The notes beneath the pieces were generated by a model, which was not told the DNA's origin, did no database searches, and saw only the letters and a program-made list of their open reading frames with translations. This document shows positions 4,723 through 29,569 of a DNA stretch of 64,000 bases, piece by piece (the first letter of the stretch is position 1; each line of letters begins with the position of its first letter). This stretch comes from Pseudomonas entomophila. GTDB lineage: Bacteria; Pseudomonadota; Gammaproteobacteria; Pseudomonadales; Pseudomonadaceae. The stretch covers positions 893,501-957,500 of the forward strand of contig NZ_CP070982.1 of assembly GCF_018417595.1 (NCBI RefSeq). The letters run 5' to 3'. Both the position numbers and the translations under genes were made by a program.

Positions 4723-5940
4723 TCAATGCTGCTTGGCCCTTCGAATCCTCAGCAGGATCACCAGCAGCAACAGCCCTGCCACTGGTGCCATCCCTAGCAG
4801 GGCCTCCCGCGCCGTCAACCCCGCTCCCAGCACATTCAACCCGCCATACAGCAGCTTGAACAGGTTCAGCAGGTAATAGGTGATCGCAATGATCGACAAG
4901 CCTTCCACTGCCCGCTGGATCTTCACCTGGGCATCGGCCCGGGCATTGAGGCTGCGCAGGATCTCGGCGTTCTGCTCTTCCATCTCCACCTGCACCCGCG
5001 CCTGCAGCAGGTCGCCCAGGTTGGCGACGTTCTTCGCCAGCTGTTCCAGCCGTTGCTCGGTGGCCACGCAGTAGCGCAGCGTCGGCTTGAAGCGCCGCTC
5101 GATGAACACCCCCAGGCGCTGGCAGTCGGCGACATGGCTTTCGCGCAGCTCGCCCAGGCGCTCGAACACCAGCTGCGCATAGGCCTGGCTGGCGCCGAAG
5201 CGGTGGCGGGTCTGCACCGTGCGATCCACCACCTGGCGCGACAGGTGGGCGATGGCTTCGAGCAAGGCTTTGGAGTCGTTGGGCGCGACGCTGGTGCTGC
5301 GTTCGGAGAGGCTGACCAGGGTCTTGTCGAAACCGTCCAGCTCCTGGCCCAGGGCCTTGGCCGTGTCCAGGGTCAGCGAGGCCATCATGCGGTAGGTCTC
5401 GATCTCCAGCAGGCGGCGGATCATGCGGCCCTGGCGGTAGGCGTTGAGCCGGCGGTTGATGAACAGCAGGCGGTTGGTGCCGTCCTCGGTCAGACGGAAA
5501 TCGCTCCACACCACCGCGTCGCCACCGCCGACGCTGGAGCCGCAGGGGTCCTTGAAACCGTAGCGGGCGAGGTCCAGATCCTGCTCGCCGCGTACCAGCA
5601 CCTGCACGGCGTTGATCACCTGCGCCGCTTGCGGGGCGATGGCCTCGGCGAGCGCGGCGGGCAGGGGCTGCCAGTCGCTGTCATGGCTGGCGCAGGGCAC
5701 CACCAGGGTCAGGGTGAAGAACTCGGCGTGACGCTCCCATTTGAACGGGTGGCCGTCGAGCCGGGTGATGCCCTGGGCGGCCAGGGTGTCGATGGCCTCG
5801 GGGCAGCAGCGTTGCAGCAGGGCCCGGCACTCGGTCTCGCCACCGAGCAGGGCGAGGTGGTGGACGTGGGCCGGGTCGTCGAAGTACAGCGACGGGCGGG
5901 CGTGCAGTTCGTTGTGCAGGGCGGTGCGAAGAGGGTGCAT
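4723..5940 (-). CDS. DUF3422 family membrane-anchored protein
   Basis: 405 residues. It begins MHPLRTALHNELHARP, the typical start of DUF3422 proteins. The body is soluble and mostly helical with coiled-coil character (for example QLAKNVANLGDLLQARVQVE). The last 90 residues hold two hydrophobic segments (LSIIAITYYLLNLFKLL and MAPVAGLLLLVILLRI) and end in RIRRAKQH. The layout resembles CorA-like or scaffold proteins, a large cytoplasmic part held by a C-terminal hairpin, but no biochemical role is known to me. Confidence 0.85.
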   Translation of the reverse strand: MHPLRTALHNELHARPSLYFDDPAHVHHLALLGGETECRALLQRCCPEAIDTLAAQGITRLDGHPFKWERHAEFFTLTLVVPCASHDSDWQPLPAALAEAIAPQAAQVINAVQVLVRGEQDLDLARYGFKDPCGSSVGGGDAVVWSDFRLTEDGTNRLLFINRRLNAYRQGRMIRRLLEIETYRMMASLTLDTAKALGQELDGFDKTLVSLSERSTSVAPNDSKALLEAIAHLSRQVVDRTVQTRHRFGASQAYAQLVFERLGELRESHVADCQRLGVFIERRFKPTLRYCVATEQRLEQLAKNVANLGDLLQARVQVEMEEQNAEILRSLNARADAQVKIQRAVEGLSIIAITYYLLNLFKLLYGGLNVLGAGLTAREALLGMAPVAGLLLLVILLRIRRAKQH

Positions 5941-6011
5941 GGGGCTGGCCTGGTGTTGTGATTGTGGGGCTACCAGGAGGTGGGACTTCGCGGCGGGGAG
6001 GAAAAGTCACG

Positions 6012-6086
6012 GCCCATTCGCCGGCAAGGCCGGCTCCTACAATAAACGTGGCAACTGTAGGAGCTGGCCTTGCCGGTGAATGGGCC
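6012..6086. repeat. REP pair (inverted, CGCCGGCAAGGCCGG head type)
   Basis: CCATTCGCCGGCAAGGCCGG with CTCCTAC, then TGTAGGAG with GGCCTTGCCGGTGAATGG, forming a long imperfect inverted repeat between the DUF3422 start and the aldehyde dehydrogenase stop. Confidence 0.85.
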
Positions 6087-6113
6087 GGAACGGGCGAAGA
6101 CAGGATTACGTCG

Positions 6114-7544
6114 TCAGCCCAGGCACCGCGTCACATGCTTTACCGACTGATACCCCGAAAGCCCCCAAGGTCCGAGCTCGCGGCCAATGCCGCTGCCTTT
6201 GGTGCCGCCCCACGAGGTCTCGACGAACACCGCCTGCACCGAGTTGATCCACACATGCCCGACCTCCAGCGCATCGGCCACGCGCTCGGCGCGTTCCAGG
6301 TCGGCGGAGCAGACGGTGGCCACCAGTCCGAAACGGCTGTCGTTGGCTTGGGTAATGGCCTCGGCTTCACTGTTGAAGCGCCGTGCGCACAGCACCGGCC
6401 CGAAGATCTCCTCGCCCCACAGGCGGCTGCTCTCGGGCACATCCACATACAGTGTCGGGCTGACGAACCAGCCGTCACGGTCCAGCGCCTTGCCGCCGGC
6501 CAGGCACTTCAGGCCCTCCTCGCGGGCGGTGGCGAAGTAGCCGGCCACCTTGAGCCACTGCGCCTGGCTGGTCAGCGGCCCCATGTCGACTTCTTCAGTG
6601 AGCGGGTTGCCCACGCGCAACGCCTCCAGCGCCGCCTGCAAGCGTGGCAGCAGCGCGCTGGCAATGCCGTCCTGCACCAGCAGCCGCGAGGTGGCCGAGC
6701 ACATCTGCCCGGCGTTCCAGGTGATGCCGGCGACGATCCATTCCACGGCCTGGTCGACATCGCAATCGTCGAACACCACGATGGCCGACTTGCCGCCCAG
6801 CTCCAGCGTCACCGGCCGGCATTGAGCCGCCGCGGCGCGCATCACCTGGCTGCCGACGCCGTTGCTGCCGGTGAACGACAGCTTGTCCAGGCCGTTGTGG
6901 CCGCTCAGGGCGGCGCCGGTCTCGGCCTTGCCGTTGACGATGTTCAGCACGCCGGCGGGCAGGCCCAACTGCTCGGCGATCTGGCCGTAGGCCTGCTCGA
7001 CCAGCGGGGTGACCTCGGAGGGTTTGAGCACCACGGTGCAACCTGCCGCGAGGGCCGGGGCGAGCTTCCAGGCGCTGGTCACCAGCGGGAAGTTCCACGG
7101 CACGATCAGGCCGACCACGCCCACCGGCTCCAGGCGGGTGCGGGCGGTAAAGCCTGGCACGGCCAGGGCTACGTCACGGTTTTTCGCCGGCAGCTGCTCG
7201 GCCAGGTCGGCGTAGTAGGCGAAGGTGGCGATGGCGTCGTCCAGGTCGATCTCGGCCTCGTGGCACGGTTTGCCGTTGTTGCGCATCTGCAGGGCGATCA
7301 GCTCGTCGCGGCGTTGGCCCAGCTGCTCGGCGAAGCCGCGCAGGTAGGTGGCACGCTCGGCGGCGCTGACCGTCTTCCAGGAGGCCAGGGCGCGGCGCGC
7401 AGCGGCCACGGCCTGGTCGACCTGGCTGGCGCTGGCGGCCATCAGTTCGGCGAACGGCTGGCCGTCGGACGGGTTGTGGACAACGAGGCAGTCGCTGCCC
7501 TGGCCTTCGACCCAGTGGCCGTCGATGTAGTGAGGTGTGGTCAT
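6114..7544 (-). CDS. Aldehyde dehydrogenase (betaine/amino-aldehyde type)
   Basis: 476 residues, normal length for an NAD(P)-dependent aldehyde dehydrogenase. Visible landmarks: VPWNFPL for cofactor and active-site geometry, FTGSNGVGSQV in the Rossmann fold, the general-base Glu in LELGGKS, and the nucleophile Cys in NAGQMCSATSRL. The CSATSRL form is typical of betaine-aldehyde and aminoaldehyde dehydrogenases, so a small amine-derived aldehyde is a reasonable substrate guess. It is last in a minus-strand row with an NCS1 permease (13-base gap) and an NTF2-like protein, suggesting uptake and oxidation of one nitrogenous compound. Confidence 0.9.
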   Translation of the reverse strand: MTTPHYIDGHWVEGQGSDCLVVHNPSDGQPFAELMAASASQVDQAVAAARRALASWKTVSAAERATYLRGFAEQLGQRRDELIALQMRNNGKPCHEAEIDLDDAIATFAYYADLAEQLPAKNRDVALAVPGFTARTRLEPVGVVGLIVPWNFPLVTSAWKLAPALAAGCTVVLKPSEVTPLVEQAYGQIAEQLGLPAGVLNIVNGKAETGAALSGHNGLDKLSFTGSNGVGSQVMRAAAAQCRPVTLELGGKSAIVVFDDCDVDQAVEWIVAGITWNAGQMCSATSRLLVQDGIASALLPRLQAALEALRVGNPLTEEVDMGPLTSQAQWLKVAGYFATAREEGLKCLAGGKALDRDGWFVSPTLYVDVPESSRLWGEEIFGPVLCARRFNSEAEAITQANDSRFGLVATVCSADLERAERVADALEVGHVWINSVQAVFVETSWGGTKGSGIGRELGPWGLSGYQSVKHVTRCLG

Positions 7545-19641: not shown

Positions 19642-20160
19642 ATGGCAACTCCCGCCTACATGGCCGTCACCGGCGAAAAACAAGGTCTGATCACCGCTGG
19701 CGCCTTCACCGCCGACTCGGTGGGCAACACCTACCAGGAAGGCCACGAAGACCAGGTCATGGTCCAGGGCTTCGAGCACGAAGTGATCATCCCGCGTGAC
19801 CCGCAGTCCGGCCAGCCGACCGGCCAGCGCGTGCACAAGCCGGTGAAGATCACCAAGGTCTTCGACAAGGCCTCGCCGCTGCTGCTGGCCGCCCTGACCT
19901 CGGGCGAGCGCATGACCAAGGTCGAGATCAAGTGGTACCGCACCTCGGCCCAGGGCACTCAAGAGCACTACTACACCACCGTCCTGGAAGACGCGATCAT
20001 CGTCGACATCAAGGACTACATGCACAACTGCCAGGACCCGGCCAACGCCCACTTCACCCACCTGGAAGACGTGTACTTCACCTACCGCAAGATCACCTGG
20101 ACCCACGAAGTGTCCGGTACTTCCGGTTCCGACGACTGGCGCGCGCCGGTCGCGGGCTAA
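19642..20160 (+). CDS. hcp: Type VI secretion tube protein Hcp
   Basis: 172 residues, Hcp family. It forms the hexameric rings that stack into the T6SS inner tube and can carry effectors. Typical segments are MATPAYMAVTGEKQGLITAG, HKPVKITKVFDKASPLLLAAL and YFTYRKITWTHEVSGTSGSDDW. The RBS AAGGAG is well placed. No other tss gene is nearby, so this is an orphan hcp in front of its vgrG-rhs partners. The leader has a sigma-54-like promoter. A REP pair separates it from vgrG, which may give hcp a higher transcript level. Confidence 0.95.
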   Translation: MATPAYMAVTGEKQGLITAGAFTADSVGNTYQEGHEDQVMVQGFEHEVIIPRDPQSGQPTGQRVHKPVKITKVFDKASPLLLAALTSGERMTKVEIKWYRTSAQGTQEHYYTTVLEDAIIVDIKDYMHNCQDPANAHFTHLEDVYFTYRKITWTHEVSGTSGSDDWRAPVAG

Positions 20161-20372: not shown

Positions 20373-23300
20373 ATGTTTGCCGCCGCCGACCAGACCCATT
20401 TCAGCTTGCACATCGACGGCCTGGAGCACGACTTCCAGGTACTCGCCTTCGACGGCAGCGAAGCCATCAGCCAGGTGTACGCCATCGACCTGGAACTGGT
20501 CAGCGAGCACCCCTCGCGGGACCTGGAAAGCCTGCTGCACAAGCCCGCGTTCCTCCAGCTCGGTGACGACGGCCGCGGCCTGCACGGCCTGATCTATCGC
20601 GCCGCGCAAGGCGAGGCGGGCAAGCGCCTGACCCGTTACCAGGTCACCCTGCGCCCGCAACTGGCCTACCTGGCCCACCGCATCAACCAACGCATGTTCC
20701 AGCAGCTGAGCGTGCCGAAGATCATCGCCCAGGTACTGGAAGAGCACGGCATCCTCGCCAATGCCTACCAGTTCCAGCTGGGCGCCGTGTACCCGGAGCG
20801 TGAGTACTGCGTGCAGTACGACGAGTCCAACCTGCAGTTCGTCCAGCGCCTGTGCGAAGAAGAGGGCATCCACTACCACTTCCGTCACAGCGCCGAGGGC
20901 CACCAACTGGTGTTCGGCGACGACCAGACGGTGTTCCGCAAGCTGGCCCCGGTGGCCTACCAGCAGGACGCCGGGCTGGTGGCCGACACGCCGATGATCA
21001 AGCGCTTCGGCCTGCGCGTGGAAACCCGCACCAGCAGCGTCACCCGCCGCGACTACGACTTCAAGAAACCGCTGATCCAGCTCGAAGGCGAGTCAGTCAG
21101 CCACGCCGAGCCGGAGCTCGAAGACTACGACTACCCCGGGCGCTTCCTCGACCGCGCCCGCGGCAAGCACCTGGCCACCCGCGCCCTGGAGCGCCACCGC
21201 AGCGACTTCCGCCTGGCCGAAGGGCGCAGCGACCAGCCGTTGCTGGCCAGCGGGCACTTCCTGACCCTGAGCGCGCACCCCAACGCCGCCTGGAACGACC
21301 TCTGGCTGCTCACCGAGGTGCACCACCAGGGCCGCCAGCCCCAGGTGCTGGAAGAAGCCATCACCAGCGACGTCGACGCCAAGTACGACGGCTTCCAGCA
21401 GGGCTACCGCAATTTCTTCAGCGCCACCCCGTGGGACGCCACCTACCGCCCGCCGCTCGAACACCCCAAGCCGCGCATCCTCGGCACCCAGCGCGCGGTG
21501 GTCAGCGGCCCGGCCGGCGAGGAGATCTACTGCGACGAATACGGCCGTATCAAGGTGCAGTTCTTCTGGGACCGCGAAGGCCGCTCGGACGACAAGTCCA
21601 GCGTGTGGATGCGCGTGGCCTCCGGCTGGGCCGGGCAGGGCATCGCCAGCCTGCAGCTGCCCCGGGTCGGTATGGAAGTGCTGGTCAGCTTCCTCGAAGG
21701 CGACCCCGACCAGCCCCTGGTGACCGGCTGCCTGTACCACGGCGTGAACATGCCGCACTACAAGCTGCCCGACCTGAAAACCCTCGCTACGATCAAGAGC
21801 AAGGAATACAAGGGCAGCCGCAACAACGAACTGCGCATCGACGACACCACCAGCGAAATCAGCATCGCCCTGCGCAGCGACCACGGCGCCAGTGCGCTGA
21901 ACCTCGGCTACCTGACGCACCCACGCCCGAGCGGCGGCGCCCCCCGTGGCGAAGGCTTCGAGCTGCGCACCGATCGCCACGGCGCCGTGCGCGCAGCCGG
22001 TGGCCTGCTGATCACCACCGAACCCCGCGCCAACGAAGCCAAGCACCACAAGGACCTGCCCGAAACCGCCGAACGCCTGGCCACCGCCAGCGAGCAGCAG
22101 GACAGCCTGGCGGAACTGGCCAAGCAGATGCAGGCCCAGGAGCCCGGCGACCAGGACGCCGTGGCCAAGCGCCTGCACGAACAGCACCAGGGCATCCTCG
22201 GCAGCGGCCCGGTCAACCAGAGCGCCAACGAGTTCCCCGAATTCGCCCAGCCGCACCTGGTGCTGTCGAGCCCGGCCGGCATCGCCCTGACCACCCCCGG
22301 CCCCAACCACATCACCACCGGCGAGCACCTGGCGCTGAGCAGCACCGGCCACACCAGCATGTCCGTCGGCAAGCGCCTGCTGGCCAGCGCCAGCCAGGGC
22401 ATGCGCCTGTTCGTGCAGAGCCTGGGCTGGAAACTGGTGTCGGCCTCCGGCGACATCGACATCCGCGCCCTGAAGGACAACATCAACCTGCTGGCCAAGC
22501 TGGACATCACCGCCAACGCCGACCGCATCGTGCTCACCGCCAAGACCGAGCTGGTGATCCAGGGCGGCGGCAGCGCCACCACCTACAACGCCGGTGGCAT
22601 CACCCACGTCACCAGCGCCAACTACACCGCCCACGCCGCGCAGTTCGCCCATATCGGCGCCGCCAGCAAGGCCGGCACCTTCCCCGAACCGCCGAAACCC
22701 GGCAAGGGCGACCTGGAGCTGCTGTACCAGTACGCCAACAGCAAGGGCGTGAAGACCGGCGACTACGACGTGATCGACGCCCTGGGCAAGTCGATCAAGG
22801 GCAAGCTCGACGGCAACGGTTTCAACCAGGCCAGCGGCGCCGCCGCCGGCCCGCTGTGGGTCGACTTCGGCCTGGACCCGGCCGACACCTGGGCCGAGGG
22901 CAGCCACTTCGGTGCTGGCGACTGGCCACCGAAGGCCAGCTTCGCCGACATCGCCCCCGGCCAGCAGGCCGTGGTCGGCGAGGTACTCAGCGGCGGCAAG
23001 GGCGCAGAGGGGGTGCTGGGCAAGGGCCTGGCACTGGCACAGCAAGGCATGGACAAGGGCAAGGGACTGATGCAGAACGCGATGGCACAAGGAAAATCGA
23101 TGGCCCAGGGCCTGATGGGCCCCGGCGGCAACGGCCTGCTGGAACAGGGCAAGGCCCTGGCCGGCACGGGCCTGCAACTGGCGAAAAGCGGCCAGGCCGC
23201 GCTGCAGAAGGCGCAACAGGTCAAGGCCGCCGTCGGTGGCGACACCGGCGCCATGGCCCAGCTGGCCAGCAACGTGGTGCCCGGTGCGGCGCCCACGCTC

Positions 23301-23393
23301 AAGGCCGCCAGCGCGCTCAAGCAACTGCCGAGCCTGCCCAAGCTCAGCGCCCCGGTGAACCCGGCCAAGCTGAACCATGAGGTGCTGGCATGA
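20373..23393 (+). CDS. vgrG: Type VI secretion spike protein VgrG with long C-terminal tail
   Basis: 1006 residues. The gp27-like base occupies about 1-340 (YCVQYDESNLQFVQRLCEEE). The gp5-like OB fold follows (EEIYCDEYGRIKVQFFWDRE, RVGMEVLVSFLEGDPDQPL). The beta-helix and DUF2345 domain cover about 480-770. The last 230 residues are unusual: a short segment ending about GQQAVVGEV, then a Gly/Ala/Lys/Gln-rich tail with repeated motifs (QQGMDKGKGLMQNAMAQGK, LLEQGKALAGTGLQLAKSG). No metallopeptidase or other enzyme motif is seen there. The tail probably holds the Rhs protein encoded by the next gene, whose ATG overlaps the vgrG stop (ATGA, 23390-23393). A decayed second vgrG piece lies at about 29080-29340. 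Confidence 0.95.
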   Translation: MFAAADQTHFSLHIDGLEHDFQVLAFDGSEAISQVYAIDLELVSEHPSRDLESLLHKPAFLQLGDDGRGLHGLIYRAAQGEAGKRLTRYQVTLRPQLAYLAHRINQRMFQQLSVPKIIAQVLEEHGILANAYQFQLGAVYPEREYCVQYDESNLQFVQRLCEEEGIHYHFRHSAEGHQLVFGDDQTVFRKLAPVAYQQDAGLVADTPMIKRFGLRVETRTSSVTRRDYDFKKPLIQLEGESVSHAEPELEDYDYPGRFLDRARGKHLATRALERHRSDFRLAEGRSDQPLLASGHFLTLSAHPNAAWNDLWLLTEVHHQGRQPQVLEEAITSDVDAKYDGFQQGYRNFFSATPWDATYRPPLEHPKPRILGTQRAVVSGPAGEEIYCDEYGRIKVQFFWDREGRSDDKSSVWMRVASGWAGQGIASLQLPRVGMEVLVSFLEGDPDQPLVTGCLYHGVNMPHYKLPDLKTLATIKSKEYKGSRNNELRIDDTTSEISIALRSDHGASALNLGYLTHPRPSGGAPRGEGFELRTDRHGAVRAAGGLLITTEPRANEAKHHKDLPETAERLATASEQQDSLAELAKQMQAQEPGDQDAVAKRLHEQHQGILGSGPVNQSANEFPEFAQPHLVLSSPAGIALTTPGPNHITTGEHLALSSTGHTSMSVGKRLLASASQGMRLFVQSLGWKLVSASGDIDIRALKDNINLLAKLDITANADRIVLTAKTELVIQGGGSATTYNAGGITHVTSANYTAHAAQFAHIGAASKAGTFPEPPKPGKGDLELLYQYANSKGVKTGDYDVIDALGKSIKGKLDGNGFNQASGAAAGPLWVDFGLDPADTWAEGSHFGAGDWPPKASFADIAPGQQAVVGEVLSGGKGAEGVLGKGLALAQQGMDKGKGLMQNAMAQGKSMAQGLMGPGGNGLLEQGKALAGTGLQLAKSGQAALQKAQQVKAAVGGDTGAMAQLASNVVPGAAPTLKAASALKQLPSLPKLSAPVNPAKLNHEVLA

Positions 23394-26300
23394 CCGACGC
23401 CAAGAAACGCGAAGCCCAGGTCGCCGTTGCTCCGCTGAACACCATCGACGCCAAGGACGTCGGCCGTGGCGCCGCCGCCTTCGACGCCTGGCTGCAATCG
23501 GTCAGCGGCGGCTACGTCACCCTCGAACGGATCAAGACCGTGGCCGGCGCGCTGCCGGTGGTGGGCAACATCATGGCCCTGGTCGACGCCCTGGGCGACG
23601 TGGTCACCCTGGTCAAGAGCAAGAACCGCCAACTGCTCGACTGGGTGAGCCTGGGCATCAACCTGATCGGCGTGCTGCCAGCGCCGCCAACCATGGCCGC
23701 GGCACGCATGAGCCTGCGCCCGACCCTGTTCCTGGTGCGCCAGGAGCTGCGCAACAGCGCCAAGATGCTGCTGGGCGATTCGCTGATCCAGGTGCTGATC
23801 GGTCACCTCAACGCGACCATCGCCGGGACCATCGACGATTTCGTGGCCAAGGCCCAACCGAAGATCGCCAGCATCCTGGCCGACGCTGGCGCGCTGGGCA
23901 CCAAGATGACCAGCGAGATCGCCACCGGGCTGGAGAAAGTCACCCTCGGGCAACTGGACGCCAAGGGTGACCGCGACAAGGCGGGCAAGCAGATGTCCGC
24001 CGCCGCCGACAAGCTGATGAACGACCCCAAGGCGGCCTTCAGCAACTTCTTCGGTGCCGTGCACAGCGCTTACAAGGCCGCTGGCAAGGGGTTGGCCAAC
24101 AGCGCGACGAGCAAGCTGCTGCCGGACGAGATCAAGAGCAAGGTGCTGGCCAACACCGGGCAACTGCGCGCCTTGGGGCCGGAGATGGCCCGGCAGTTGA
24201 ACAAGCTGGCGGACCCGGCGACGCAGATGAGCATCGGCTGGATGCTGACGGTGCTGGGCGGGGCGGTGAAGGGCTTCCGTAAGCGCAACAAGAACGGGCA
24301 GCCGGGGGTGAGCAAGCCGGGGACGACCACACAAGTGGAGCGGGAGAAGGGCAAAGGCGAGTTGGCGGTCAGTGGTTCGCAGGCCAATGCCACCCAGACG
24401 CCGAGCCCGATCGAACCCAGTTGCCCGATCCCGAGGCCGACACCGAAGTCCACGACGGGGCGCAGCATCAGCTTTGCCCTGGGCTCGGAATTCATCATTC
24501 ACACGGATTTCAGCCTGCCCGGTGCATTTCCAATTGATTGGCAACGGATCTACCACTCGCGCTTGGCCCAGTACGACAAGGGCTGTCTAGGCGCGCGTTG
24601 GATCACCGAATTCACCACGCGTATCGATGTGGTCGACAAGGGTTTGTTGTTTCATGACTTCGATGGTCGCAGCCATGAATTTGAACTGCCCAAGGTCGGC
24701 AAATCGTTGTTCAACGCCATCGAGGACTTGCTGCTGGTACGCAGCAGCGACGATGAGCTGGTGATCTGCCGTGGCTTCGTGCGCAAGGAGTATTACCTGC
24801 GCGTGGGCGACCGTTACTACCTGCGCAAGATCCTGCTGCAGAACGACGCGGGCTGCATGCTGCACTACGAGCATCACCACGAAGGGCGTCCGGTGCTGTC
24901 GGACATCATCACCTTCCAGGGCGATGTGAAGGACGTCCTGCGCCACCTGGGCACGCTAATCGATGAACAGGGCCATATCACCGGCCTGTGGGAAATGCGC
25001 GATGGCCAGCCACTGCGTCAGTTGTGCGCCTACCACTACGATGATCAGGGGGATCTGGTCGCCGCCCAGGATGAACAGGGTGCCGCCTGGCACTACCAGT
25101 ACCAGAATCACTTGGTCACCCGTTACACCGACCGCACCGGCCGAGGTATGAACCTGCAGTGGGACGGCAGCGCTTTCGACGCCAAGGCCACTCGTGAATG
25201 GGCCGACGACGGCAGTTACGACACGCGCCTGGAATGGGACGAGAACATTCGGCTGACCTACGTCACCGACGCCCACGGCCAGGAGACCTGGTACTACTAC
25301 GACATCCTTGGCCACCTGTACCGTGTGCGCTATCCGGATGAAAGCTCGGAGTGGATTTTCAGGGATGAGCGCAAGAACGTGGTACGCCACGTTCATACCG
25401 ATGGCACTGAAGACCGCTACGACTATGACGAACAAGGCAGTGTCATTCGCCATATCCGCGCCGATCACAGCCAGGTCCATATTGCTTATGACGACCGTCG
25501 TCATCCGATCAAGATCCGCGACGCCGAAGGCGGCTTGTGGCTGCGGGACTACGACCAGAAGGGCAACCTCGTCGAGACCGTCGACCCATTGGGCAACAAG
25601 ACTGAGTTCGCCTATACGCCCTCCGGTCTGGTCAAGGCGATCAAGGACGCCAACGGCAACGAGAAGAAGCTGGCGTACAACGCGGCGGATCAGTTGGTCG
25701 AATTCACTGACTGCTCGGGCAAGACCAGCCAGTGGGCGTACGACGACTTCGGTCAATTGGTGTTGTTCACCGATGCAGTCGGCAGCACGACCACCTATGA
25801 GTACAAGGCTGGTCAACTGACGAAAGTCACCCACCCGGACAACTCCGAAGAGCGCTTCGAGCGCGATGCTGAAGGTCGTCTGCTGGCTCACGTCGATGCA
25901 CTAGACCGTTGCACTACTTGGGCCTACAACGCCGTGGGCCTGCTGGCCGAGCGGGTGGATGCCAACGAGCACACTCTACGTTATCGCTGGGACAAGCTGG
26001 GCCGCCTGATCGGCCTGGAAAACGAGAACGAGAGCAAGGCCAACTTCCTTTACGACCCGGTCGGGCGCTTGCTGCAAGAGCAAGGCTTCGATGGCTTGGT
26101 GACGCGTTACCAGTACGATCCTGAAACGGGCCGGCTGGCCAGCACCCAGGTCGGTCAGCGCCGTATCGACATCACCTTCGATCCGGTGGGCCGGCTCGCT
26201 TCTCGCGTGGCCAGCCTGGGGGACCAGCGCCAGGAAGAATCCTTCGCCTACGACGGCAACGGCAACCTGATCCAGGCGACCAACGCGGCCAGCAAGCTGC

Positions 26301-28072
26301 AATGGTTCCATGACGAGGCGGGCAACCTGACCCGCGAGCACCAGTACTACCTCGGCACCGAGGTGCCGATGGTCGCGGTGTGGCAGCATGAATACGACGC
26401 GCTGAACCTGCGCACGGCGACCATTCGCCCGGATGGCCACAAAGTCAGCACGCTCACCTACGGCAGCGGTCACGTGCTGGGCATAACCCTCGACCAGCAT
26501 GAGTTGCTGGCTTACGAGCGCGATGACCTGCACCGTGAAGTGGTGCGGCATCAGGGCAACCAGTTGATGCAAACCCAGGCGTGGGATCCGGCGGGGCGGC
26601 TTCAGGAGCAACTGTTGGGCAGCCACGATGGCCAGTCGACCCTGCTCAAACGCCAGTATCAATACGATGCCGTCGGCCAGCTGACCGATATCCACGACAC
26701 CCGCCGTGGCCACCTGGCCTATCAGTACGATCCCGTTGGCCGCTTGCTGCAAGCCACCAGCCGCCTTGGCGTGGAGACCTTTGCTTTCGACCCGGCCGGC
26801 AACCTGCTGGACGACAAGACCCAGGAACTCAATCGTCCGCTGGAAAGCGATCCGCGGCGTAACAAGCTGATGGACAACCTGCTGCGTGAATACGCCGGGA
26901 CCCACTGCCAATACGACGAACGCGGCAACCTGATCCATCGCCTGCACAATGGCGAGCAGGCTCGCCTGAGCTGGGACCTGTTCGACCGCCTGACGTGTTT
27001 TGACGATGACAAGCTCACGGTGGTGTACAGCTACGATGCCTTGGGCCGCCGTCTGCACAAGCACTCCACCGCGCACCATCAGGATGATCCGCGGGCCGGC
27101 AGTGGCTGGAACCAGATGCAGCGGGCCAAGCGCCAGCGTGAACTGGGTTGCGGTTACACCTTGTATGGTTGGGATGGCGACAACCTGGCCTGGGAAAGCT
27201 CGCCGCCGCAGGACGAAGGTGAAACCGGGCGCACCGTGCATTACCTGTACGAGCCGGGCAGTTTCGTGCCTGTTGCCCAGGCTATACGCAAGAACCCGAT
27301 CCGCTTGCTACGCCAGCCGGACTGGAGCGACCGGGAGTACGATTTCGATCAGGACCCGCTGTGGCAGCACGAGGTCAAACCGCAGCCAATCGACGCAATT
27401 GCCTGGTACCAGTGCGACCACCTCGGTACGCCGATGGAACTCACCGACCACCACGGTGACGTGGCGTGGACGGCGCAGTACAAGGCATGGGGTGAGGTCA
27501 AGGAGGCCCGCTCGGAATGGGCGAAGCAGAATGGCCTGAACAACCCTATCCGCTTCCAGGGGCAGTACCACGACCATGAGACCGGGCTGCATTACAACCG
27601 CTATCGGTACTATGATCCTAGGGCTGGGCGCTTTATCAGTCAGGATCCAATAAGCTACCTGGGTGGGGTCAACCTCTATCAGTATGTGCCGAGCCCGATT
27701 GATTGGGTGGATCCGTGGGGGCTGAAGCGGATCAAGAATGCGGTTGAAGGAGATCGTCGTCACCAGGAATTTAATGCTGAGATTAAAACGAAGCATCCGA
27801 ATGCGACGATACAAAGTGAGTGTTACCTGCGAGATGCAAGCGGGAAGTCAGTCAAAGACCCTCGTACTGGAGAACGCCGTCGGGTAGACACGGCTGTGAT
27901 TGAGAACGGACAGGCGAAAACCTACGAGGTTACGAGTATGACGGCTGATAAAACGGACCAAATTCTCAAAGAACGTCGAATATTAGCGACGGGTGGTACA
28001 TTTGTTAAAGATCGCTCTACTGGGAAGCTAGTACCTGTGGTGGGCGTTTCAGAGGTGGTTAGGAGAGATTGA
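23390..28072 (+). CDS. Rhs-family T6SS effector with variable C-terminal toxin
   Basis: 1560 residues. N-terminal region (1-355): a polar start, two hydrophobic segments (about 50-75 TVAGALPVVGNIMALVDALG; about 84-106 DWVSLGINLIGVLP), then a helical stretch. No PAAR motif is seen. The Rhs shell (about 357-1440) is built from many YD-type repeats (for example YDELGRL-like WDKLGRLIGL, YDPVGRLLQ) and ends with GRFISQDPI, VNLYQYVPSPIDWV and the DPWGL motif at 1441-1445, where Rhs proteins cut themselves. The toxin is residues 1446-1560. Translation is coupled to vgrG (4-base overlap), so VgrG is its delivery partner. Base use becomes AT-rich right after the DPWGL codons, a sign of tip exchange. 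Confidence 0.93.
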   Translation: MTDAKKREAQVAVAPLNTIDAKDVGRGAAAFDAWLQSVSGGYVTLERIKTVAGALPVVGNIMALVDALGDVVTLVKSKNRQLLDWVSLGINLIGVLPAPPTMAAARMSLRPTLFLVRQELRNSAKMLLGDSLIQVLIGHLNATIAGTIDDFVAKAQPKIASILADAGALGTKMTSEIATGLEKVTLGQLDAKGDRDKAGKQMSAAADKLMNDPKAAFSNFFGAVHSAYKAAGKGLANSATSKLLPDEIKSKVLANTGQLRALGPEMARQLNKLADPATQMSIGWMLTVLGGAVKGFRKRNKNGQPGVSKPGTTTQVEREKGKGELAVSGSQANATQTPSPIEPSCPIPRPTPKSTTGRSISFALGSEFIIHTDFSLPGAFPIDWQRIYHSRLAQYDKGCLGARWITEFTTRIDVVDKGLLFHDFDGRSHEFELPKVGKSLFNAIEDLLLVRSSDDELVICRGFVRKEYYLRVGDRYYLRKILLQNDAGCMLHYEHHHEGRPVLSDIITFQGDVKDVLRHLGTLIDEQGHITGLWEMRDGQPLRQLCAYHYDDQGDLVAAQDEQGAAWHYQYQNHLVTRYTDRTGRGMNLQWDGSAFDAKATREWADDGSYDTRLEWDENIRLTYVTDAHGQETWYYYDILGHLYRVRYPDESSEWIFRDERKNVVRHVHTDGTEDRYDYDEQGSVIRHIRADHSQVHIAYDDRRHPIKIRDAEGGLWLRDYDQKGNLVETVDPLGNKTEFAYTPSGLVKAIKDANGNEKKLAYNAADQLVEFTDCSGKTSQWAYDDFGQLVLFTDAVGSTTTYEYKAGQLTKVTHPDNSEERFERDAEGRLLAHVDALDRCTTWAYNAVGLLAERVDANEHTLRYRWDKLGRLIGLENENESKANFLYDPVGRLLQEQGFDGLVTRYQYDPETGRLASTQVGQRRIDITFDPVGRLASRVASLGDQRQEESFAYDGNGNLIQATNAASKLQWFHDEAGNLTREHQYYLGTEVPMVAVWQHEYDALNLRTATIRPDGHKVSTLTYGSGHVLGITLDQHELLAYERDDLHREVVRHQGNQLMQTQAWDPAGRLQEQLLGSHDGQSTLLKRQYQYDAVGQLTDIHDTRRGHLAYQYDPVGRLLQATSRLGVETFAFDPAGNLLDDKTQELNRPLESDPRRNKLMDNLLREYAGTHCQYDERGNLIHRLHNGEQARLSWDLFDRLTCFDDDKLTVVYSYDALGRRLHKHSTAHHQDDPRAGSGWNQMQRAKRQRELGCGYTLYGWDGDNLAWESSPPQDEGETGRTVHYLYEPGSFVPVAQAIRKNPIRLLRQPDWSDREYDFDQDPLWQHEVKPQPIDAIAWYQCDHLGTPMELTDHHGDVAWTAQYKAWGEVKEARSEWAKQNGLNNPIRFQGQYHDHETGLHYNRYRYYDPRAGRFISQDPISYLGGVNLYQYVPSPIDWVDPWGLKRIKNAVEGDRRHQEFNAEIKTKHPNATIQSECYLRDASGKSVKDPRTGERRRVDTAVIENGQAKTYEVTSMTADKTDQILKERRILATGGTFVKDRSTGKLVPVVGVSEVVRRD
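27725..28069 (+). other. Rhs C-terminal toxin domain, nuclease-like (residues 1446-1560)
   Basis: 115 residues after the DPWGL cut site. Visible pattern: Glu1453, RRRVDTAVI (Asp1500), TYEVTSMTADKTDQ (Glu1513, Lys1521), KERRI and GGTFVKDRSTG. The spacing D-(12)-ExT-(6)-K, followed by Gln and basic residues, looks like a PD-(D/E)xK-type nuclease core with the Lys displaced. This is fold inference from pattern, not a database match. DNase is more likely than RNase, but neither is shown. Confidence 0.5.
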
Positions 28073-28405
28073 ATGAGCGACTATCCGGTATGGGATATAG
28101 ATGGTGTGCTTGAAGCATATATTGACATTCCAGAGTGGCATGCAAGTATTGGTAGAGCCCTTGAAAATCTATTTCTGTTCATGGAGAGTAATGGTCTGTT
28201 GACTTGTCGAGTAAGTGATGAAAATGGAAGAATAGTAAAGCGTGTGATTATGAGTAGCGAAATTACTGCGGAGGGCGATCTGCTATCAAGTGGCCGTAAT
28301 AATGCAGTCGATAAGTGGTTGCGCTCAAAGGCAAGATTCAAAGACCCAGATGACTTAAGGTCTCTTGAGAAGGCCTTGGCGGATGTTCGCACTAAGAAGT
28401 ACTAG
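28073..28405 (+). CDS. Putative immunity protein for the Rhs toxin
   Basis: 110 residues, acidic, no signal peptide or membrane segment, so cytoplasmic, as needed against a nuclease. The ATG follows the rhs TGA directly (TGAATG) with TTAGGAGA as ribosome binding site, so it is co-translated with the toxin tip. Base composition is AT-rich like the toxin-coding segment and unlike the Rhs shell. I do not recognise a family. The immunity role is inferred from position, size and charge. Confidence 0.7.
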   Translation: MSDYPVWDIDGVLEAYIDIPEWHASIGRALENLFLFMESNGLLTCRVSDENGRIVKRVIMSSEITAEGDLLSSGRNNAVDKWLRSKARFKDPDDLRSLEKALADVRTKKY

Positions 28406-29079
28406 TTGCGCTACTTTCTGAACTGGCTAACCAATAGGTGTTAAAGCCTAGGTTGGCTGGTTCGGACAAAGGGGCGCGGCTAAAAGAGGACGATTTTATT
28501 CCCCGCTCGAAAACCTGCTCGCATTGGGATCAAGGTGGACGTAAGACTAAGGTTGTTTCGGCTGAAAAGCTAACATTGACAAGATGGGGCTTCCAACGGA
28601 GGGAGCTGATGGGCAACTGTCGCTCATGGCGAGTCGCTGGAAAATTAATCGTGCAGGCGAAGTAGGGTGAAAAAGTTTAAGTAGGCAAATAAATCTGCCC
28701 CGTTTTCTTGGTCCGCTATATAGGATGTTGCCGCGATCATGGAGCGGGGAGACGTGCTGGATTTTATTTCTCTTGCGATGGCTGATGCCGTGTCGATCGT
28801 TTTTGGTACGTTGGATGGTACTCACTTCCCTGACGGACTTTCCGGAGATTTTGCTGTCAGTTGTGATGGCGAGAAAATTAGTGGGGACTTACAGGGCTAT
28901 TTTTTGGAGAGAGCTGAAGAAAAGGGGATCTACTAAACCTCAGGTGGAAACTCCAAGATTGTGTGACGGCCATACAATTGGCTCTGCCCGCTATTGGCGC
29001 TAGGCTCGGTAGGCCTGCGCCGTGTCGGCTGAGTTTGATTGGTTGGAGCCTCGGGCTCGACATGCGGCTAATTTTGACG
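28406..29079. other. AT-rich debris downstream of the immunity gene
   Basis: About 670 bases with no convincing intact gene. Frames are short and interrupted. One 75-codon frame from GTG 28438 includes RSKTCSHW, weakly like the zinc ribbon of TnpB-type proteins, without the second Cys pair. Another frame is listed separately (28739-28936). The region looks like remains of displaced toxin/immunity cassettes or mobile DNA. Confidence 0.5.
28739..28936 (+). CDS. Small hypothetical protein or remnant of an orphan immunity gene
   Basis: 65 residues beginning MERGDVLDFISLAMADAVSI and ending YFLERAEEKGIY. It is acidic, with protein-like composition (FGTLDGTHFPDGLSGDFAVS). A stop codon (TAG 28721) lies six codons upstream in the same frame and no clear ribosome binding site is seen, so it may be the surviving end of a longer gene. 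Its place behind an Rhs cassette suggests a former immunity protein. Confidence 0.3.
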   Translation: MERGDVLDFISLAMADAVSIVFGTLDGTHFPDGLSGDFAVSCDGEKISGDLQGYFLERAEEKGIY

Positions 29080-29340
29080 AGTGGAACTCAATAACGAGCG
29101 GTCATGAACAGTACAGCCCAGATCTTCGAGCACGGTGCCTGAACGCTGAACCTTCGCTATCACAAGCCCCCTAGACCGTCCTGCGGCGCCAGTGTGATGA
29201 TGGCGACCGCCACGACTGACGACCTGCTGATCATCACCGAACTGTGCTCGAACGAAGCCAAGCACCACAAAGTCCTGCCCAAAACTACCTCTGACCGTCG
29301 CTAGCTACTAACAGGATTACCTAGGCTCTGTACGAAAAGA
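29080..29340 (+). pseudogene. Decayed vgrG fragment
   Basis: DNA here aligns with the middle of the intact vgrG (about 21820-22130). Best block: 29221-29286 against 22002-22067, about 55 of 66 bases identical by hand count, reading LLIITELCSNEAKHHKVLP against LLITTEPRANEAKHHKDLP. Upstream, GAGCACGGTGCC and CGCTGAACCT match GACCACGGCGCC and CGCTGAACCT; downstream, AACAGGATTACCTAGGCTCTG resembles AGCAGGACAGCCTGGCGGAAC. Several in-frame stops and small indels show it is dead. It differs enough from the upstream copy to be a separate old vgrG rather than a fresh duplication. Confidence 0.75.
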
Positions 29341-29569
29341 GATGTCGTTAACACCGCATGGAATAGTCGCGTTGGCATGACGCAATGCTGACTGCGTCCA
29401 GGCAGAGGCTGGGCACAGAGGATGTCACTGGCTTGACCGCCAGAAAGGAGGACGCGCAAGCGTGTCCCGTTGGCATCGAAAGGTAGACAAGGACACGAGA
29501 TTCTGGCGATTGGCCAGCTTTTTCAGTTATCCTGCGCGCCCAAATTATTTCAAATTGTAAGGGACTACG

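Follow-up and report, generated by a model that had tools for sequence, protein, structure and literature searches.

Polymorphic toxin tips of the restriction-endonuclease (REase) fold have been sorted into ten clades, Tox-REase-1 to Tox-REase-10, many of them carried on RHS proteins and most accompanied by an immunity gene, and all ten are described as conforming closely to a D-[EQ]xK signature (PMC3482391, Zhang et al. 2012, section 22). PoNe is a PD-(D/E)xK antibacterial toxin with an adjacent immunity gene, PoNi, found with type V, type VI and type VII secretion systems (PMC6688995), and TseV, Aave_0499/RhsB and IdrD ('Plu1493-like') are PD-(D/E)xK DNases of the type VI secretion system (T6SS) (PMC9635880). 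Several variations of the PD-(D/E)xK motif itself exist (PMC1913061). Here we analyze an rhs gene and the small gene behind it in a 64,000-nucleotide stretch of the Pseudomonas entomophila genome (contig NZ_CP070982.1, positions 893,501 to 957,500), which we refer to as the window. The 115-residue C-terminal tip of the Rhs protein and the 110-residue protein encoded next to it very probably constitute a T6SS-delivered PD-(D/E)xK Rhs nuclease toxin and its cognate immunity protein.

An AlphaFold2 model of the tip (predicted local distance difference test score, pLDDT, 93.3; predicted template modelling score 0.83) places its helices (H) and strands (E) in the order H4-23, E28-34, E53-60, E63-70, H77-88, E93-95, E102-105, E110-113 in tip numbering, to which 1445 is added to obtain the Rhs residue number (D55 = D1500, E68 = E1513, K76 = K1521, K82 = K1527). 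The leading Foldseek/VIA rows for the tip were the R2 retrotransposon protein, McrBC, Cas4, Hjc, TnsA, Bax1 and the arenavirus endonuclease, most of which we take to be members of the PD-(D/E)xK superfamily; no structural match to a nuclease reached E<=0.001. The predicted topology and the acids of motifs II and III support placing the tip in the restriction-endonuclease-like, PD-(D/E)xK fold class. Because strands 53-60 and 63-70 are joined by a two-residue turn (61-62), the strand register would set D1500 opposite E1513 on the predicted beta-hairpin.

A tip-limited protein search with 133 candidates yielded 5 other Rhs proteins; its database was clustered at 90%, which can hide tips carried by common Rhs cores. 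A pattern scan of GTDB species genomes yielded 11 loci with tip relatives (the named loci), with best-segment identities of 57-86% in ten and 52% in the eleventh, hosted by Pseudomonas, a Pantoea-labelled record, Iodobacter, Paraburkholderia (three loci), Cupriavidus and Flavisolibacter nicotianae (Bacteroidota). Profile A3 made 12 tip matches in 11 of 398 genomes drawn from the genus, some of which are named loci, and this draw also contained a second tip subfamily (L017-L021) with 33-46% identity to the window tip. With profile A5, a tip match occurred in 1 of 369 genomes drawn from the class (the window's own genome) and in 3 of 398 drawn from the phylum (the own genome, one strong match and one with E=1.8e-4 over 37 positions). 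In the window genome, tip and immunity protein each gave a single match, and viral contigs and phage and plasmid records gave no relative at the sensitivity used. Pairwise identity among the tips goes down to 28%, and the tips come from two phyla.

We tabulated conservation at 39 positions in 21 distinct tips (the rows of profiles A3 and A5), excluding duplicates (L013-L016), matches made later (L028, L029) and decayed copies (L022, L023). Residues G9, L35, R36, G40, R52, D55, G62, E68, T70, S71, A74, K76, Q79, K82, E83 and G90 were invariant, and these include the motif II acid (D55) and the motif III acid (E68), 13 residues apart. With D55, E68, T70, K76, Q79, K82 and E83 kept in 21 of 21 tips, the pattern exceeds what chance would give. 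The lysine that the superfamily carries two residues past the motif III acid is absent: all 21 tips have Thr there, and the two decayed copies read EVAS where tips have EVTS. In the predicted model K76 lies just before a helix and K82 on it, 14 residues past E68. The missing lysine is probably substituted by one on the loop or helix that comes next, either K1521 or, judged by spacing, K1527. Position 13 (residue 1458) is His in 8 tips and Glu in 13, and may be the motif I equivalent of the viral His+/His- classes.

This arrangement resembles that of the Hantaan and Lassa/lymphocytic choriomeningitis virus (LCMV) cap-snatching endonucleases, which share His/Glu at motif I, D-x12-E and a helix lysine 13-14 residues past the E (PMC4909276, PMC2940758). 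The corresponding acids are 13 residues apart in both the Hantaan (D97/E110) and Lassa (D89/E102) enzymes; the Hantaan lysine K124 is 'deployed from helix' 14 residues past E110, Lassa K115 follows E102 by 13, and for LCMV the authors' enzyme assay could not rank the two candidate lysines, K115 and K122 (PMC4909276, PMC2940758). In the mechanism we favor, self-cleavage after DPWGL, presumed from Rhs biology, would probably free the tip from its Rhs shell, and the tip would poison a rival by acting in its cytosol as a metal-dependent PD-(D/E)xK endonuclease. Its site would combine the motif I His/Glu (H1458), D1500 of motif II and the E-x-T of motif III (E1513, T1515) with a catalytic lysine, K1527 or K1521, from the loop or helix that follows, together with Q1524 and E1528, and the 110-residue protein would bind and block the tip.

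On balance, DNA appears a likelier substrate than RNA. A tip that is specifically an RNase, cutting tRNA or mRNA for example, is possible but rather unlikely: its acid spacing and His/Glu alternation are closest to those of the viral cap-snatching RNA endonucleases (PMC4909276, PMC2940758), and arenavirus polymerases with an endonuclease domain stand among the top VIA rows; however, the DNA enzyme Hjc has the same spacing of 13 (D33/E46; PMC1913061), and the experimentally studied PD-(D/E)xK T6SS toxins PoNe, TseV and RhsB are reported to be DNases (PMC6688995, PMC9635880, PMC10989746). We consider it doubtful, as a more speculative extension, that the tip is an antibacterial toxin on the full viral cap-snatching plan (His/Glu motif I, D-x12-E-x-T, helix lysine), probably Mn2+-dependent and RNA-directed, and neutralized by half a MarR-type winged helix turned from DNA binding to nuclease binding.

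The missing motif III lysine could also mean that the tip keeps the PD-(D/E)xK fold without catalysis and kills by binding target-cell nucleic acid or protein. We think this improbable. D55, E68, K76, Q79, K82 and E83 stay invariant down to 28% identity and across two phyla, which mere binding would hardly need, and the Hantaan endonuclease works with a helix lysine (PMC4909276, PMC2940758). The same has been proposed for DUF1626, where the motif III Lys is often Thr and the Lys has probably relocated to the helix (PMC1913061).

Neither the tip nor the 110-residue protein has a curated match in Pfam, NCBIfam, PADLOC or PHROGs; library scans of the tip gave sub-threshold rows alone (E 0.036 and 0.038), and PDB sequence searches returned nothing useful. 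Weak hits among 16 tips, such as those to DUF6602 (1 tip, E=0.0026), HSDR_N (1 tip, E=0.042) and SNase (2 tips, best 0.0095), went unused. Membership in a known Tox-REase clade is very improbable. Tox-REase-7 (PF15649) comes nearest, since its motif order GxxxE, IxD, ExK, Q resembles the tip's GxxxH/E, D, ExT, Q (PMC3482391), but no Tox-REase Pfam model hit any of 16 tip members or five of the second subfamily at E<=1, hhalign gave Tox-REase-7 6.7%, though against two sequences only, and not one of the 21 tips has ExK. The ten clades keep [EQ]xK and the tip family has ExT, which argues for a variant outside them.

An earlier note, made from this DNA alone, had proposed a PD-(D/E)xK-like core built on D1500, E1513 and K1521, with Thr at the usual Lys site, followed by a 110-residue ORF without a known family, and had suggested that both proteins may be undescribed variants. 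The positions are correct, the Thr proved to be a family-wide trait, the predicted fold and its mostly superfamily matches support the core, and none of the leading structural rows belongs to another toxin class. K1521 stands as a candidate for the replacement lysine, with the reservation that K1527 may be the one instead. The absence of a known family for the ORF agrees with the four library searches, which gave none for the tip either; the further suggestion of an undescribed variant needs narrowing, as DUF1626 of this superfamily has been described with the same Thr and a relocated lysine (PMC1913061), which makes the tip a variant with precedent.

The 110-residue protein is a conserved partner of the tip and its putative cognate immunity protein. 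A relative directly follows the tip in all ten testable named loci, one of them in Bacteroidota (the eleventh, L009, runs into the contig edge; in L010 the relative is split into two open reading frames (ORFs)). In the genus draw, all 11 toxin-bearing genomes carried a match to immunity profile A7, a test that is partly circular because 8 of the 11 gave a row of A7, and 12 of 12 tip matches had such a match on their own strand, 5 to 139 bases further downstream. In G363, G285 and the second G366 copy, three of these 12, tip or partner was decayed. Immunity-profile matches occurred in 16 genus genomes in total; two (G100, G224) are MarR regulators by Pfam, and three have immunity copies without a recognized tip. 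One of these follows an unrelated Rhs tip and its neighbor ORF (G335, L048), one is preceded by just a 16-residue trace like the tip's end (G078, L049; E 0.007), and one carries a stop codon and sits 3' of an Rhs fragment (G384). Orphan immunity genes are known in other Rhs systems (PMC10539506). The model of the 110-residue protein is of middling confidence (pLDDT 81.4), but its constant position behind the tip and its persistence in copies without one, as immunity genes persist, make it very improbable that the ORF is an unrelated cargo gene.

Weak signals suggest a MarR-like winged helix for the immunity protein, whose fold is uncertain: hhalign against MarR gave 77% with two self-selected MarR rows and 6.0% without them, and the score of 22.0 exceeded the maximum of 15.6 in 100 column shuffles, with HxlR also at 18.0. 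The protein is acidic here, as the earlier note had it (isoelectric point 5.2), but acidity is no family trait, since partners range from 5.2 to 9.3 across 15 toxin-immunity pairs.

Identity between toxins correlates with identity between their immunity proteins over these 15 pairs (Mantel r 0.79, P 0.0002) and likewise over the five pairs of the second subfamily (r 0.88, P 0.019); over the nine pairs of the window subfamily there is hardly any correlation (r 0.23, P 0.066). The window tip shares 77% identity with the L002 tip and 65% with the L008 tip, while the partners are 33% and 55% identical, respectively, and in Paraburkholderia antibiotica the two tips with readable partners are 79% identical and their partners 40%. 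In the window subfamily, then, immunity proteins seem to have changed faster than toxins, by divergence or by exchange. Two toxin columns separated the two immunity lineages, against a mean of 1.37 over all 126 splits, and 47 of the 126 splits were equally good, so we make no claim about specificity-linked toxin positions. Because its toxins remain alike while their immunity proteins fall into lineages, the subfamily lends itself well to work on the divergence of immunity specificity.

Several loci show further rearrangements. One P. antibiotica genome has three family tips (L005, L006, L009). In the record labelled Pantoea sp. Cy-639 (L003), the end of the tip at 5001-5339 deviates from the family past position 102, just before its immunity gene, and a second, decayed toxin-immunity pair follows the first (5823-6285; also L015, L023). 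In L008, the immunity gene has 3' of it a displaced Rhs end (1584-2105) that bears another tip, as in rhs arrays.

The gene pair belongs to a cargo island (Table 1) in a host genome that is a single contig of 5,960,991 bases. The Rhs protein has RHS repeats, an Rhs-associated core, DPxGL and a variable tip, and its gene is linked to vgrG and hcp in a genome with a T6SS gene, all features of a T6SS-linked Rhs effector. That gene encodes IcmF, the sole T6SS core gene looked for, and lies elsewhere in the genome; the hcp-vgrG-rhs-immunity island is thus probably cargo of that apparatus, by which the tip would be delivered. The vgrG gene overlaps the rhs start by 4 bases. At the toxin/immunity junction (TGA-ATG, 28070-28075), the tip ends GAT-TGA and the next ATG begins at 28073, seven bases downstream of an AGGAG. 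The earlier note's reading of this boundary, with its TGAATG junction, 115-residue tip, 110-residue ORF and switch to AT-rich codons after DPWGL, holds: third-position G+C content is 0.808 in the remainder of the rhs gene, 0.435 in the tip and 0.400 in the next ORF, as is typical of toxin-immunity cassettes that have been exchanged.

Table 1 Features of the rhs cargo island (window coordinates)
Feature	Coordinates	Strand	Basis
hcp, T6SS tube protein, first gene of cargo island	19642..20160	+	PF05638 E=1.8e-36
vgrG, T6SS spike	20373..23393	+	TIGR03361 E=2.8e-178, PF05954, PF10106, PF13296
rhs, 1560 aa; RHS/YD repeats, Rhs-associated core residues 1364-1445	23390..28072	+	PF05593, PF03527, TIGR01643, TIGR03696
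DPWGL, residues 1441-1445, presumed self-cleavage motif at core/toxin border	27710..27724	+	sequence
Toxin tip, 115 aa, residues 1446-1560, predicted non-canonical PD-(D/E)xK nuclease	27725..28069	+	AlphaFold2, Foldseek/VIA, conservation in 21 sequences
Candidate active site of tip: H1458, D1500, E1513, T1515, K1521/K1527		+	model and 21-sequence conservation
AGGAG, likely ribosome-binding site of immunity gene, within toxin 3' end	28061..28065	+	sequence
Putative immunity gene, 110 aa	28073..28405	+	relatives directly downstream of same toxin family; no curated family

The ~1.1 kb that follows the immunity gene (28406-29560) is debris, probably the scars of past cassette exchange. Positions 29223-29285 resemble three other sites of the genome (84-86%), one of them inside the window vgrG (22004-22066). 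Parts of 29319-29478 are similar to short elements that certain other members of the genus carry in multiple copies, with some part matched in 30 of 99 genomes. Its small ORFs at 28438-28665 and 28725-29003 have no family match above cut-off. Further 3' lie a DUF2167 gene and then housekeeping genes (glutamyl-tRNA reductase, release factor, PrmC-type methyltransferase; Pfam).

Compared with the described toxins, the tip falls outside the families tested by sequence (the Tox-REase Pfam models and the PoNe motif). PoNe is marked by Kx3GExnGIDx2YxnYx3ExK and by DUF1911/DUF1910 immunity proteins (PMC6688995); by eye the motif is absent from the tip, and Pfam scans found no DUF1911 match in the partner. 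TseV, RhsB and IdrD were compared by description alone, so kinship is possible: D, E and K are conserved in the alignment of each clade of this group (PMC9635880), and RhsB, an Rhs tip accompanied by a pair of small immunity proteins, showed its authors 'no obvious catalytic sites' and loses activity in the KE-AA and KD-AA mutants (PMC10989746). Txe1, Txe2 and Txe4 of P. plecoglossicida (PMC9020831), a Salmonella effector (PMC13224477) and Tde5 (PMC13392607) were set aside as relatives, being of HNH/His-Me types. At the level of titles and abstract beginnings, we noticed no description of the tip in the open literature on toxins and immunity, which does not prove its absence. In DUF1626 and DUF506 the motif III lysine is likewise replaced (by Thr in DUF1626), with Lys/Arg on the next helix; they differ in not being presented as toxins in the parts of that paper concerned with them (PMC1913061) and in having no sequence match in Pfam scans of the tips. 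The invariant Thr at the lysine site, with two invariant lysines nearby, offers a clean test of how PD-(D/E)xK enzymes function without the canonical lysine. Toxin and immunity families are named in none of the four libraries searched, and the toxin family occurs on the tips of Rhs proteins from at least two phyla; what is new is a family whose active site is rearranged rather than a new kind of system.
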